This document shows positions 10,334 to 46,491 of a DNA stretch of 64,000 nucleotides, in pieces. The notes beneath the pieces were generated by a model. The model did not search any database and was not told where the DNA came from. It worked only from the letters and a program-made list of their open reading frames with translations. The stretch is from Bacillus sp. ISL-41 (GTDB taxonomy: Bacteria; Bacillota; Bacilli; Bacillales; Cytobacillaceae). The stretch covers positions 1 to 64,000 of the forward strand of contig NZ_JAGGQP010000013.1 of the NCBI RefSeq assembly GCF_018613235.1. Reading direction: 5' to 3'. Both the position numbers and the translations under genes were made by a program. Within the stretch, counting starts at the first letter, position 1. Every line of letters begins with the position of its first letter.

Positions 10334-10349
10334 AATGATTAATATATGA

Positions 10350-10625
10350 ATGAGCGATGACGAAGAGTAGTAACTGGATCAGGTACCTCAGAGAGCTGAT
10401 GGTTGGTGGGAATCAGTGTAACTGTTGCAGCGAATGGACTTCCGAGCTTCCGGACCGAACCCTTATGAGAGTAGGCTCTGGCGAAATGGCCTTATCGTTA
10501 TAAAAGGCAGGCATTAAGCATTCAATGCTCGATGCTGTTAAGTGAGCTGTTTTACAGCTAATTAAGGTGGCACCACGGGTCTCTCGTCCTTTTTGTATTC
10601 AATAAGGATGGGGGCCCTTTTTGTC
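10350..10625 (+). promoter_or_regulatory. T-box riboswitch 1, tryptophan specifier
   Basis: The T-box sequence AAGGTGGCACCACGG is at 10564-10578, followed by a terminator (10576-10624) whose 5' arm overlaps it. In Stem I, GCGAATGGACTTCCGAGC aligns with the specifier loop of known T-boxes, putting the specifier codon TGG (Trp) at 10435-10437, six bases before GAGC as in glyQS. Uncharged tRNA-Trp would stabilise the antiterminator. Confidence 0.9.
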
Positions 10626-10639
10626 TGCTGTTAAATATC

Positions 10640-10947
10640 GATAATAATATTATGTAAACTCGATGAACAAGAAGAGTAAGCAGGATATTTCTGTTGCAGA
10701 GAGCCGGGTATGGTGTGAACCGGTACAGAAATACTTGCCGAATGGCCTTGTGAGAGGCAGCCTGAAGTAACAGTAGGGCTGCCCGGACTCCTCCGTTAAA
10801 AGGATAGGGTATATCGAAAGCTTTTTTGGTTTTCCTGTACCTGAAAAGAGGGAGCTCTTAAAGCTCCAATTTGAGGTGGCACCGCGGTCCAATCGTAATC
10901 GTCCTCTATACAGCACAATCATTGTGCATGTATAGGGGACTTTTTTA
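10640..10947 (+). promoter_or_regulatory. T-box riboswitch 2, tryptophan specifier
   Basis: A second complete element: T-box sequence GAGGTGGCACCGCGG at 10872-10886, specifier TGG at 10743-10745 in CGAATGGCCTTGTGAGA, and a terminator at 10901-10947 with a long stem (GTCC-CTATA-GCACAAT arms) and six T. It lies between T-box 1 and trpE, so polymerase must pass two Trp-tRNA checks in series. Confidence 0.92.
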
Positions 10948-27408: not shown

Positions 27409-28542
27409 ATGGGAATGCAAGCAATCACTGCTGAAAAATTAAATGAATGGGTAGTAAACAAAAAAGAATTTTTCATTTTTGACGTAAGAAATGTTAAAGA
27501 CTTTGAAGACTGGAAGGTTGAAGGTGAAAAAATCGACTACCTTAATATCCCTTACTTTGACTTAATCGATGGTGTTGACGAAGTAGTTGACCAGCTTCCG
27601 AAGGATAAAGACATCGTGGTAATCTGTGCTAAGGAAGGTTCTTCAGTAATGGTTGCTGAAATGCTTTCTGATGCAGGTTTTGATGTTTCCTATCTTTCTG
27701 GCGGGATGAAATCCTGGAGCGAATACCTGTATCCAGTTGAAGTATATAAGGATGAAAAGGTCAAAGTCCTTCAGTTCATCCGTGTTGGAAAAGGCTGTCT
27801 TTCATATATGGTTCTTTCTGAAAATGAGGCACTTGTTGTGGATCCATCAAGGTTCACCAACCGTTATACTGAAGTTGCACAAAAGGAAAATGTAAAAATC
27901 ACACACATCGTTGATTCTCACCTTCATGCTGACCACCTATCCGGCGGAAAGGAACTGGCTGAGGTCACAGGAGCGAAATATTACCTGATGAAGAGTGAAG
28001 GCGCGGTATTTGACTTTGAAGCGCTAGAGCAGCATGATAAAATTGAATTCGAGAACATTACACTTGAAGTCTTGGCCGTTAAGACACCAGGACATACCCC
28101 GGGCAGTGTTTCGTTCTTTGTGAATAATAAACTTCTATTCTCAGGCGATACTATCTTTGTAAATGGCCTTGGACGCCCAGACCTTGGCGGAAAAGCTGCT
28201 GAGTGGGCAAAAGACTTGTATGATACTGTTTATAGCAAAGTATCCCAAATTGCGGATGATGTAATTGTATTGCCGGGACACTATGCTGCCTTTGATGACG
28301 AAGTAAATGAAGAAGGTTTCATTGGAAGCCAAATAGGTTTGATCCGCAAGCAAAATGAAATTATGGCAGGTAAAACAGTTGATGAGTTTGTCGACCATGT
28401 AGCTCAATCTGCATCAAGTGAGACACCGCCAAATTTTGAGGATATTGTTGCGATCAACCGCGGTGTAAAAGAAGTGACAGCAGAAGAAGCAATGGAGCTG
28501 GAAATCGGTCCTAACCGCTGCGCTGTACACCACACTCACTAA
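27409..28542 (+). CDS. rhodanese / metallo-beta-lactamase fusion, persulfide dioxygenase-like
   Basis: A 377-residue fusion. The N-terminal rhodanese domain (about 1-112) has its active cysteine C73 in ICAKEGSS. The C-terminal metallo-beta-lactamase domain carries H171-x-H173-x-D175-H176 (HLHADH), a later His in TPGHTPGS and an Asp in FSGDTIF, giving the single-iron site of persulfide dioxygenases. Such fusions oxidise or transfer persulfide sulfur. The order resembles Bacillus YrkH-type proteins; S. aureus CstB has a related but different order. GGGAGGA precedes the ATG. Confidence 0.88.
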   Translation: MGMQAITAEKLNEWVVNKKEFFIFDVRNVKDFEDWKVEGEKIDYLNIPYFDLIDGVDEVVDQLPKDKDIVVICAKEGSSVMVAEMLSDAGFDVSYLSGGMKSWSEYLYPVEVYKDEKVKVLQFIRVGKGCLSYMVLSENEALVVDPSRFTNRYTEVAQKENVKITHIVDSHLHADHLSGGKELAEVTGAKYYLMKSEGAVFDFEALEQHDKIEFENITLEVLAVKTPGHTPGSVSFFVNNKLLFSGDTIFVNGLGRPDLGGKAAEWAKDLYDTVYSKVSQIADDVIVLPGHYAAFDDEVNEEGFIGSQIGLIRKQNEIMAGKTVDEFVDHVAQSASSETPPNFEDIVAINRGVKEVTAEEAMELEIGPNRCAVHHTH

Positions 28543-28547
28543 AAAAC

Positions 28548-28580
28548 AAAAAGAGGGAAGCACTGCTTTCCTCTTTTTAA
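28548..28580 (+). terminator. terminator after the rhodanese/MBL gene
   Basis: AAAAAGAGGGAAGC and GCTTTCCTCTTTTT form a 14-base stem with one mismatch. The next translation signal begins only 18 bases later, so partial read-through is possible. Confidence 0.8.
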
Positions 28581-28608
28581 GTCTAATGATTGCTTGTGAG
28601 GTGAGAAC

Positions 28609-28779
28609 TTGGAAGAAAATAAGAAAAATAACCATTGTGCAGGCGGTTCCTGAGGAATCGGACCAAAGCGTACAGGTAATGAAGGGCAAGGGAAGTTTTC
28701 TGGCTTTCCGCCTATATGACCAGCCACGTACGTATGGCTCCTGGCAGGAGTCATTTATTTGATTTCTAAGTTATTCTAA
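28609..28779 (+). CDS. candidate recoded small ORF with two in-frame UGA codons
   Basis: GAGGTGA (28598-28604) is correctly placed before a TTG at 28609. The frame then stays free of UAA and UAG for 56 codons to a TAA at 28777-28779, but has UGA at 28651-28653 and 28717-28719. The first UGA follows HCAGGS, giving a CxxxxU-type motif; the second follows GFPPI. After it the frame encodes a clear membrane segment (VWLLAGVIYLISKLF). If both UGA are read, this is a C-terminally anchored protein with a redox-like motif, possibly a selenoprotein. It could instead be a pseudogene or a 14-residue peptide. No convincing bacterial SECIS is visible, though the first UGA sits in the triloop of a 7-bp hairpin (28644-28660). 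Confidence 0.35.
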
Positions 28780-28841: not shown

Positions 28842-29411
28842 ATGCTAGATGTACTAGTGATTGGAGGCGGGATTTCAGGTGGATCAGCTGCGATTTACAC
28901 TTCCCAGGGCGGATTGAAAACTGCAGTCATCGATTCAGGGAAATCCCAAATCAAACAAGTTTCAAAGCTTTTTAATTATCCGGGAATCAAAGAAATTGCC
29001 GGTCCAGAACTTCTGGATAACATTAAAGACCAGGCAATTGATGGGGGCACTGAATGGCTTGAGGGTTCGGTTGAAACAGTCACACGGACCGATCATGGCT
29101 ATTCAATCAAATTGACTGATGGCAATGAAAGAGCTGCAAAGTACCTGGTTATTGCCACGAACCTTCAAACTTCATTGCTTGAAAGCCTAGGATTCGAGTT
29201 GGCAGTAAATGAGAAGGTACCTAGCGGGAAAATTAAAAAGGTATTGGGGATTGAGCACGATGGAACCACAAAACTCCCAAATCTTTATATCACCAGCTTG
29301 TTAGCAGGTCTGTCAAGTCAATCCGTCATAGCCGCGGGACATGGCGCTTCTATTGGCATATCGATTGTGTCCAAGGAAACTGGAAAATCCTATATGTGGC
29401 ATGACAAGTAA
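28842..29411 (+). CDS. thioredoxin-reductase-like FAD oxidoreductase, short form
   Basis: A 189-residue flavoprotein-like protein with an N-terminal FAD-binding GGGISGGSAA motif and a C-terminal AAGHGASIGISIV FAD-contact motif. It is much shorter than thioredoxin reductase (about 310 residues): the NADPH domain and the CxxC pair are both missing, as in some small stand-alone FAD-only oxidoreductases. AGGAGGG precedes the ATG. It follows the UGA-interrupted ORF by 62 bases, suggesting co-transcription. The function is uncertain. Confidence 0.78.
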   Translation: MLDVLVIGGGISGGSAAIYTSQGGLKTAVIDSGKSQIKQVSKLFNYPGIKEIAGPELLDNIKDQAIDGGTEWLEGSVETVTRTDHGYSIKLTDGNERAAKYLVIATNLQTSLLESLGFELAVNEKVPSGKIKKVLGIEHDGTTKLPNLYITSLLAGLSSQSVIAAGHGASIGISIVSKETGKSYMWHDK

Positions 29412-45057: not shown

Positions 45058-46419
45058 TTAGGCCATTACTGGACTTCTCCAAGTCCAGTTGGCTATCTTC
45101 TTCAGGTTTAGGGCAGCGAAAGTAAGCATCGCCTGCATCGACAATTTTTTAAGTCCCCTCAGGGTTGTCCAACGCATGCCATGCTTTTCTTTTGCATCTG
45201 CGAATACGCGCTCTATGGTTTCTTTGCGCTTCGCATAGATTTCTTTTACTTCTTGCTTATGCCTCAAGTGGTCCGCTTCTTCCACATACTCCTGCCAGAT
45301 ATGGCGTGTTACCACCTTTTGGTGGTCTTTGCTTTCAGTACATTGCGCTAAAAACGGGCAGGTTGCACAGATGTTTTTTGGGGATTTATATTCACGATAT
45401 CCCTCTTTTGTGGTGGTCGAATACTTCAGGATCTCACCGGCAGGACACAAATAACAGTCGTAGAATTCGTCATATACATAGTCATATTTGCGAAAAAAGC
45501 CATCCTTCGTCCGCGGTCTGGTATAAGGCAGAGCTGGGGTCATTTCGTTTTCTATCAGAAACTTCGTAATAGCTGGAGTTTTATAGGCTGCGTCGGCCGC
45601 AACGCCATTAGGCTTTCCTACTTTCTCTATCACTTGTTCTACCAGTGGCTCAAGGATCAGGCTGTCATGCGTATTTCCAGGTGTCACAATTGTCCCCAGG
45701 ACAAATCCGTTACGGTCTGATGCGGCATGAAAGGAGTAGGCAAACTGTTTTGTCCGCTCGTCCTTGACGTAGTAACCACTCTCCGGATCGGTCGTGCTTT
45801 CCTTGATTTCTTTCGATTCTTCCTTGTCGAACTTATCAGGAGGAAAAGGCTTCTTCCCATGGTCTTCCCGATCCTGATTGATTTCTTCCTGGAGTTTCTC
45901 TTGATACGCCCGTGTTTCCTTTCGAACCACTTTCTTCTCAAATTTATGCTTATTCGCACTGGCTTTTACGTGAGTTGAATCAATAAAGACGTGTTCGGCA
46001 CTGATGAGTTTCTTTTCAGCTGCAGTCTTAAGGATTCGATAGAAAATCTGCTCAAACAAATCGGTTTCTTTAAAACGGCGTTCGTAATTCTTCCCGAAGG
46101 TGGAGAAGTGAGGCACTTTATCATGGAATCCATAACCTAAGAACCAGCGATAGGCCATATTCGTTTCTACTTCGGCAATAGTCTGCCGCATGGAACGGAT
46201 GCCAAAGGTATATTGAATGAAGGTGAGTTTTATTAAAATCACAGGGTCAATGCTTGGGCGACCAACTTCCGAATACACATCCTTCACCAAGTCGTAAATG
46301 AAAGAAAAATCAAGGGCTGCTTCCATCTTGCGGACTAAATGTTCCGGAGGAACAAGCTGGTCTAAAGCAACCATTTCTAATTGGTCTCGTTGGATTGGAT
46401 TGTTCTTCGTAAGCATCAT
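45058..46419 (-). CDS. IS1182-family transposase
   Basis: A transposase of 453 residues. The N-terminal domain (DQLVPPEHLVRKME...GRPSIDPVILIKL...GIRSMRQT) is typical of IS1182 transposases, followed by a DDE catalytic core with EHVFIDSTHVKA and GVAADAAYKTP, and a Cys-rich insert (CYLCP, CATCPFLAQC). GAGGTGA precedes the ATG pair at 46419/46416. The frame is full length, so the element may be active. Confidence 0.93.
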   Translation of the reverse strand: MMLTKNNPIQRDQLEMVALDQLVPPEHLVRKMEAALDFSFIYDLVKDVYSEVGRPSIDPVILIKLTFIQYTFGIRSMRQTIAEVETNMAYRWFLGYGFHDKVPHFSTFGKNYERRFKETDLFEQIFYRILKTAAEKKLISAEHVFIDSTHVKASANKHKFEKKVVRKETRAYQEKLQEEINQDREDHGKKPFPPDKFDKEESKEIKESTTDPESGYYVKDERTKQFAYSFHAASDRNGFVLGTIVTPGNTHDSLILEPLVEQVIEKVGKPNGVAADAAYKTPAITKFLIENEMTPALPYTRPRTKDGFFRKYDYVYDEFYDCYLCPAGEILKYSTTTKEGYREYKSPKNICATCPFLAQCTESKDHQKVVTRHIWQEYVEEADHLRHKQEVKEIYAKRKETIERVFADAKEKHGMRWTTLRGLKKLSMQAMLTFAALNLKKIANWTWRSPVMA

Positions 46420-46491
46420 TATCACCTCAAGCGTTATATGTATCTATTTTAAAATAGACTACGTTGTAGTTCCACGCTAAATTTAGAAGTC

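Follow-up and report, generated by a model that had tools for sequence, protein, structure and literature searches.

The window analysed here, the whole stretch of 64,000 nucleotides from Bacillus sp. ISL-41, includes a short reading frame that raises two questions: whether 56 codons interrupted by two UGA triplets are a gene and, if so, how both triplets could be decoded. The sequence is exactly as the preliminary description had it, with a GAGGTGA, a TTG start and 56 codons whose only stops are the UGA at 28651 and 28717; HCAGGS before the first and PPI before the second agree with the translation. The list of open reading frames of at least 50 residues (translation table 11) contained none in the 28609-28779 frame. 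The features of the gene, with both UGA codons assigned to selenocysteine (Sec, U), are the following.

28598..28604, + strand: Shine-Dalgarno sequence GAGGTGA (direct reading of the sequence)
28609..28779, + strand: gene of a putative double-selenocysteine tail-anchored protein; TTG start, 56 codons, UGA1 and UGA2 as Sec, TAA stop
28651..28653, + strand: UGA1, Sec15, in the motif C-x(3-4)-G-S/T-U-G-I; in all intact copies examined
28717..28719, + strand: UGA2, Sec37, in the motif P-P-I-U-P-A/G at the membrane edge; TGA in 106 of 107 sequences, TGT (Cys) in one (L107)
28720..28776, + strand: codons of the transmembrane helix (AlphaFold2 model helix, residues 38-55), with the SECIS inside them
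28777..28779, + strand: TAA stop of the frame (direct reading)

The translation of the frame is LEENKKNNHCAGGSUGIGPKRTGNEGQGKFSGFPPIUPATYVWLLAGVIYLISKLF. Relatives were sought by a search that reads through stop codons in 193 genomes of the family, 397 of the order and a sample of 398 of the phylum. In the family 77 genomes matched, 75 of them genuinely, and the 79 match rows comprised 74 with exactly two TGA, two with two TGA plus a TAA (apparently broken), one partial row whose full frame has both UGAs, and two chance matches inside frames of 1516 and 1556 codons. In the order there were matches in 53 genomes (52 genuine) and in 29 of 135 genera, the chance match included; the 54 rows were 48 with two TGA, one with three TGA, two with two TGA plus a TAG (apparently broken), one partial with both UGAs in its full frame, one with a TGA and then Cys, and one chance match. 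The chance matches (G165 and G169 in the family, G568 in the order) were removed; L042/L151 were dropped as broken, as was a spurious second match in L185. Exactly two TGA were found in 74 of the 77 genuine family rows and 48 of the 53 order rows, in searches unbiased toward TGA. Only three of the 398 genomes of the phylum sample matched, two of them belonging to the window genus and the third (L186) sharing only the phylum. A DNA pattern that requires UGA2, and is TGA-biased by design, retrieved 71 stretches among 84,980 species, in Mesobacillus, Neobacillus, Cytobacillus, Robertmurraya, Schinkia, Virgibacillus, Aneurinibacillus and other genera.

All intact copies keep both UGAs except L107, which has Cys at UGA2. 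Homologs with Cys at the UGA positions, which the preliminary description had proposed to look for, are represented at UGA2 solely by this sequence and were seen at UGA1 in no relative. A separate pattern search for Cys homologs gave 23 matches and no relative; it read TGA as a stop, and its pattern was too narrow for L107. The linker between the UGAs is 14 to 22 codons long and varies in whole codons. Among the relatives listed, a start codon lies mostly 12-16 codons 5′ of UGA1, usually behind a G-rich site, and 3 of 76 frames had no start codon within the range tried. L045 and L141 have a second tandem copy without the Cys and with a damaged SECIS hairpin, apparently decaying, and L211 (G194) has a third in-frame UGA near the N terminus.

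Substitutions were compared in 20 loci (L008-L027), which are the window genus in all tests of pN/pS and synonymous divergence. From codon -11 to codon +21 around UGA1, all before UGA2, pN/pS was 0.25, while the shifted frames of the same 20 sequences gave 1.8 and 2.3. The objection that so short a frame can lack UAA and UAG by chance fails on this value and on the two TGA kept in the family and order rows. The stretch 28609-28779 is a real gene under clear purifying selection, and the comparisons demonstrate a coding pattern on both sides of both UGAs.

Decoding of UGA as Sec requires a dedicated machinery, and the preliminary description had suggested a search of the genome for selA, selB, selC and selD. 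All were found in the window's own genome: selB (359.6 bits, above the cut-off), tRNA-Sec (67.4 bits against a gathering score of 47), selA (563 bits) and selD (394 bits, with one in-frame TGA). The Sec machinery is complete in the host genome. The TGA of selD lies in KAG-U-GCK (L188, G000:C48:6196-7122, with selA on the same contig about 0.5 kb away), so that SelD itself looks like a selenoprotein. A lack of selB and selC, together with random stops in the homologs, had been named as evidence against the proposal; the opposite was found, selB and selC being present, the UGAs kept and broken copies few. Carriers of the gene are also enriched in selB: in the order it was detected in 49 of 52 carriers and 130 of 345 non-carriers (p = 1e-15), and in the family in 73 of 75 and 97 of 118, respectively (p = 8e-4).

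Five carriers stand apart. G389 gave no selB match in an assembly of about 480 contigs and has tRNA-Sec. G171, G175, G452 and G523 gave neither selB at E<=1e-60 nor an above-cut-off tRNA-Sec. Each of these four has one subtype of the gene (L040, L041, L101 and L104), with 93-100% DNA identity over 3.1 kb to pBO1, a plasmid of Cytobacillus oceanisediminis; over this length the sequences from G171 and G175 are identical to the plasmid. The agreement between L127 and pBO1 extends over 6.2 kb (99.98%), and a further copy in G452, which belongs to another subtype, bears a TAG. In these four genomes the gene looks like an arrival by mobile cassette. A sulfane-sulfur cassette carrying the selenoprotein gene (L146, L040, L041, L127) is shared by pBO1, G171 and G175.

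Insertion of Sec in bacteria also depends on a SECIS hairpin in the message. The preliminary description saw no standard one; it was mistaken in this, for one follows UGA2.

28734..28754, + strand: bacterial SECIS hairpin AUGGCUCCU-GGC-AGGAGUCAU, with the apical GG at +24/+25 after UGA2

The hairpin has a GGY triloop closed by U-A, a stem of 8-9 bp, an apical loop 23 nt past UGA2 and an energy of -11.2 kcal/mol. The criteria for bSECIS elements (PMC13188914, here and below from a part of its text) are an apical loop of 3-9 nt, a stem of 4-16 bp, a G in the first two loop positions, a spacing of 16-37 nt and an MFE <= -7.5; checked by hand, the UGA2 hairpin falls within all of them. Its consensus in 107 sequences, UGGCUCC-U-GGY-A-GGAGYCA, is near-invariant, synonymous sites included. 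The hairpin codons CTC, CTG and GGA occur in 102, 105 and 104 of the 107 sequences, respectively, while a mostly-Leu codon seven codons 3′ varies freely (TTG 35, TTA 21, CTG 16, CTT 10, CTA 8) and neighbouring genes use CTC at about 0.09 and CTG at about 0.15. In the window genus synonymous divergence was 0.013 over hairpin codons 27-35 and 0.42-0.71 over most of the gene. Across the relatives the best hairpin energy averaged -10.4 kcal/mol versus -3.5 kcal/mol for synonymous versions. In an alignment of 69 rows, 97.5% of the cells pair and no pair is altered on both sides. A set of 24 rows (19 later loci and 5 earlier ones) had five both-side cells (0 of 500 shuffles), all from L212, L213 and L231, which are divergent members of one family and may represent one or two events. 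These comparisons establish a canonical predicted bacterial SECIS after UGA2, with its apical GG at +24. A terminator scan flagged 28734-28754 as terminator-like, and the hairpin could be read as a transcription terminator beside a spurious frame. This reading was rejected as practically negligible: the loop letters and synonymous sites stay the same from genus to genus, a conservation that a terminator would not require, the U-rich tail is not conserved (e.g., in L040), the reading frame runs on past the hairpin, and the frame is under coding constraint.

The situation at UGA1 is different. The hairpin of 7 bp with UGA1 in its triloop that had been pointed out in the preliminary description exists, but it is no stabler than shuffled sequences (z -0.07), and it was rejected as a decoding signal. 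The window has no local hairpin of bSECIS type right after UGA1. Across the relatives, the best local hairpin at UGA1 had -1.8 kcal/mol versus -1.1 kcal/mol for synonymous versions, with p<0.05 in 14 of 106 stretches. A strong local hairpin (-5 kcal/mol or better) with a loop G 16-37 nt after UGA1 was found in 13 of 107 sequences. A rule resembling the bSECIS criteria hardly beat synonymous versions, and a general local SECIS for UGA1 was rejected. In the window genus, codons +3 to +8 after UGA1 had a synonymous divergence of 0.165, the lowest of 27 six-codon blocks. These codons contain one strand of a predicted long-range helix.

28668..28673, + strand: 5′ strand of the long-range helix, GCGUAC, +15 to +20 after UGA1 (pairing tests, synonymous constraint)
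28728..28733, + strand: 3′ strand of the long-range helix, GUACGU, +9 to +14 after UGA2 (pairing tests; in the MFE fold, 0 nt from the SECIS hairpin)

The complementarity was first spotted by inspection of sequences that also served for the tests, so that only held-out loci provide an independent test. In 107 sequences the strands pair better with their own partners than with swapped ones (-11.7 versus -8.6 kcal/mol, z -11.6). The difference persisted within linker classes (p = 0.011, 0.0013 and 0.0003) and in 52 representatives with less than 75% identity (z -8.1). Pairs from the partition function numbered 8.9, compared to 3.6 in synonymous shuffles, and were higher in 96 of 107 sequences. 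All 24 held-out loci gave z -4.8; among these L218 has the same element as an earlier locus, L215 is 97% like one and L186 had been seen earlier. The 19 intact held-out loci whose element is less than 80% identical to any earlier one gave z -4.9 (p = 5e-5). L217 and L227, which bear TAG, were kept in the test with n=24 and left out of those with n=22 and n=19. In the subfamily with a linker of 21 codons, 16 both-side cells (cells, not events) and the covariation score in a fixed register were each reached in 0 of 500 shuffles. The linker-16 subfamily in one fixed register gave 114 of 500 for both-side cells and 15 of 500 for paired cells, a weak test, as the register varies. In the window genus the helix hardly varies, and its support there comes from synonymous constraint and folding. 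The position of the best helix discriminated modestly, falling at 20-28 nt in 54% of own and 41% of swapped pairs. Taken together, the pairing tests establish a predicted long-range helix that pairs the region about 13-25 nt past UGA1 with the interval from UGA2 to the hairpin.

A helix in this position would bring the hairpin close to UGA1. Helix (at least 5 pairs) and hairpin occurred together in 88 of 107 folds, and 19 of the 107 did not have both. In the 88 folds the effective spacer between UGA1 and the hairpin, counted as the nucleotides from UGA1 to the helix plus those from the helix to the hairpin, was 14.8 nt (sd 3.3, median 14), and that between UGA2 and the hairpin was 14.8 nt (sd 0.8, median 15). 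The two agree within 2 nt in 60% of cases, compared to 32% of synonymous controls. In the window both are 14 nt and the helix abuts the hairpin. L107, with Cys in place of UGA2 and UGA1 kept, retains helix and hairpin with spacers of 15 and 15, as expected if UGA1 needs them. A helix above chance and equal spacers suggest that one SECIS probably serves both codons. In the proposed mechanism, a ribosome at UGA1 would find the helix intact, with the linker and UGA2 looped out; the SelB-bound hairpin would then lie about 14 nt from UGA1 and Sec would be inserted. As the ribosome advances it would unwind the helix, leaving the same hairpin 14-15 nt from UGA2, where Sec would be inserted again.

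Other readings of UGA1 were weighed against this one. Both UGAs could encode Sec with UGA1 relying on a weak or non-canonical local SECIS of its own, the helix merely shaping the message or timing the exposure of the UGA2 hairpin. The 13 sequences with a strong, suitably spaced local hairpin, the constraint on codons +3 to +8 in the window genus and the existence of bacterial SECIS elements that do not fit the model (PMC13188914, in the part available) speak for it. However, local hairpins at UGA1 barely beat synonymous versions (-1.8 versus -1.1, 14/106), the constrained codons are those that hold the 5′ strand of the helix, and this reading predicts neither the equality of the spacers nor L107. 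The sequences with strong local hairpins are also those without long-range excess (-0.6 versus -3.6, p = 0.001). We consider it unlikely. Alternatively, UGA1 could be the true stop of a short leader, only the part with UGA2 being a selenoprotein, or it could be read by near-cognate read-through. Termination competes with Sec insertion at UGA, few codons precede UGA1, a standard SECIS for it is missing in most sequences, and 16 of 107 offer a possible in-frame start (ATG, GTG or TTG) in the linker. Against this, frame and residues are kept on both sides of UGA1 (pN/pS 0.25, codons -11 to +21), the linker changes its length by whole codons (14-22), and 91 of the 107 sequences, the window included, have no in-frame start between the UGAs; such a leader is very improbable. 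The product is almost certainly a double selenoprotein, as far as comparative evidence goes, and the sharing of one SECIS through the predicted long-range helix is quite probable.

The 73 proteins extracted are 45-64 residues long. An AlphaFold2 model built with 48 relatives and Cys in place of Sec has one helix, residues 38-55, directly after the second Sec, with a mean pLDDT of 66.8, rising from about 50 in residues 1-30 to about 94 in the helix (the final two blocks). This one confident helix bears out the membrane helix that had been proposed at the end of the frame. The part before the helix carries a net charge of about +3.2, the part after it one of about 0. Positive charges flanking a membrane helix favour the cytoplasmic side (the positive-inside rule), and by this rule the cytoplasm is the expected side for the tail that bears the Cys and both Sec. 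The protein is thus probably an unstructured, positively charged tail of 35 residues in the cytoplasm, anchored by the helix. In the tail, the Cys and the first Sec lie in C-x(3-4)-GSU-GI, and the second Sec in PPIUPG at the membrane surface. The Cys can be missing, as in L076 and in the second copy in L045. The idea of a C-terminally anchored Cys/Sec protein gained support from the Sec machinery, the conserved UGAs, the constraint on both sides of them and the helix.

What such a protein might do was approached through its neighbours. Those in the window are as the preliminary description had named them, the flavoprotein with a sub-cut-off match.

27409..28542, + strand: rhodanese / MBL-fold persulfide-dioxygenase-like fusion (Pfam Rhodanese and Lactamase_B)
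28548..28578, + strand: 14-bp terminator-like hairpin between the persulfide-dioxygenase-like gene and the selenoprotein gene (MFE -17.6 kcal/mol, z -4.43)
28842..29411, + strand: 189-aa thioredoxin-reductase-like flavoprotein with 0 Cys (best NCBIfam match TRX_reduct, 69.9 bits, far below cut-off)

The hairpin at 28548-28578, which the terminator scan did not list, separates the two genes, so expression of the selenoprotein gene may be set by read-through. The Cys-free flavoprotein could exchange electrons in trans with the Sec/Cys tail; its gene directly follows the selenoprotein gene in 22 of 106 loci, and these 22 were set apart in the comparison of neighbourhoods, leaving 84. Up to four genes on each side were counted (fewer at the ends of stretches), grouped into BLAST clusters, each labelled after one or a few of its members. 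Genes of the rhodanese/TusA/DsrE/persulfide dioxygenase (PDO) clusters occur in 71 of 106 loci and in 52 of the 84. Other neighbours among the 106 loci are TauE (27), TlpA-like proteins (23), glutaredoxin (14), CsoR/CstR-family regulators (12), a TehB-like methyltransferase (10), the selD cluster (4) and the selA cluster (3). The TlpA-like label comes from the annotation "redoxin" of one member; the member tried against Pfam had no match. The regulators had sub-cut-off NCBIfam matches only, and some of them we take to be CstR-like from the Cys present and the His missing. A rhodanese/TusA/DsrE/PDO gene, TauE or a CsoR/CstR-family regulator is found in 56 of the 84 loci; 16 of the 84 have neither a sulfur neighbour nor a TlpA-like, CcdA or glutaredoxin neighbour in view, partly because the stretches end. 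As a control, 20 arbitrary stretches of 8 kb (one per genome, at one coordinate) had the rhodanese class once, the sulfite/nitrite-reductase class once and the others 0 times.

Neighbours such as rhodanese, TusA, DsrE, persulfide dioxygenase, TauE, CsoR/CstR, glutaredoxin, TlpA-like proteins and CcdA point to the handling of sulfane sulfur or persulfide, and from the neighbours alone such a role is somewhat favoured. The peptide would then most likely be a membrane-bound selenol relay or reductase for sulfane sulfur or persulfide. It could instead serve selenium supply (to SelD) or the detoxification of oxyanions (selenite/tellurite). The selD-cluster (4/106), selA-cluster (3) and TehB-like methyltransferase (10) neighbours fit that alternative, and so does the presence of the gene in Mesobacillus selenatarsenatis. 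It is nevertheless doubtful: sulfur-carrier genes are far commoner neighbours (71/106), and the products annotated in the pBO1 cassette are those of a yrk-like sulfane-sulfur cluster. A selenoprotein gene with two Sec codons and one SECIS is very probably the best explanation of the locus. That one SECIS serves two UGAs in turn in a new family of tail-anchored double-Sec relay proteins, found in sulfane-sulfur clusters of Bacillales and spread in part by plasmids, we regard as likely.

Elsewhere in the window, 7032-7271 matches Rfam BsrG (56 bits, gathering score 55) and may be a type I toxin-antitoxin RNA, and 10348-10909 has two T-box leaders in tandem, with a downstream operon that presumably encodes tryptophan biosynthesis. 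The ORF of 455 aa at 45058-46425 on the - strand is one that we take to be an IS transposase.

The family was compared with what has been described. At E<=1, 48 members gave two matches in NCBIfam (June 2026), each of one member (E 0.13 and 0.17) and both to unrelated families. None of the 48 matched TsoA, TsoB, TsoC, TsoX, TsoY, MbdU or the other NCBIfam selenoprotein models at that threshold, and none had a supported match in Pfam. Table 1 of PMC13188914, a 2026 catalogue of 119 families, has nothing like a double-Sec peptide, and the part of that review's text available holds no word beginning with "Bacill". A literature search of titles and the beginnings of abstracts, with most subscription papers and all preprints outside its scope, retrieved no such family. 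The authors of deep-Sep state, in the available part of their paper, that selenoproteins without Cys homologs may be missed (PMC12013277), which could explain the omission of the family from the catalogue.

Among known selenoproteins, MbdU (NF045648), TsoB (NF045694) and Selenobacteriocin (TIGR04081) also have more than one Sec per chain, and TsoB shares the rhodanese/DsbD theme. Unlike them, the new peptide has about 50 residues, one helix and a long, variable spacing between its Sec residues. A close genetic setting is the yrkD/CstR cluster of B. licheniformis, which responds to sulfane sulfur (PMC9918477, a paper with 0 counted uses of "selenoprotein"). The pBO1 cassette has a similar cast of annotated products: a metal-sensitive transcriptional regulator, DsrE, TusA, an MBL-fold hydrolase, TauE, a glutaredoxin and a rhodanese. 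It differs in the extra, unannotated double-Sec gene between the rhodanese and the hypothetical/CcdA/redoxin genes. This plasmid is the one annotated record that was inspected; the gene falls between its annotated features, in a gene table that declares itself incomplete. The TlpA/ResA-CcdA thiol relays also invite comparison, as TlpA-like/CcdA genes lie near 22 of the 84 loci without a flavoprotein neighbour; unlike those relays, the protein is small and has no thioredoxin fold, AlphaFold2 giving one helix. The family would tie selenium to persulfide chemistry at the membrane and offer a small, testable system.

With the canonical bSECIS (PMC13188914, in the part available) the UGA2 hairpin shares all criteria and the favoured N1-GG-N-N2 loop. 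The difference is that the canonical element stands directly 3′ of its UGA, whereas here one hairpin apparently serves a second UGA 42-66 nt upstream as well. If the SECIS is indeed shared, the rule of one SECIS directly downstream of each UGA would not cover all bacterial cases, such genes would escape programs that depend on a local SECIS or a Cys homolog, and a compact design with multiple Sec would be possible.
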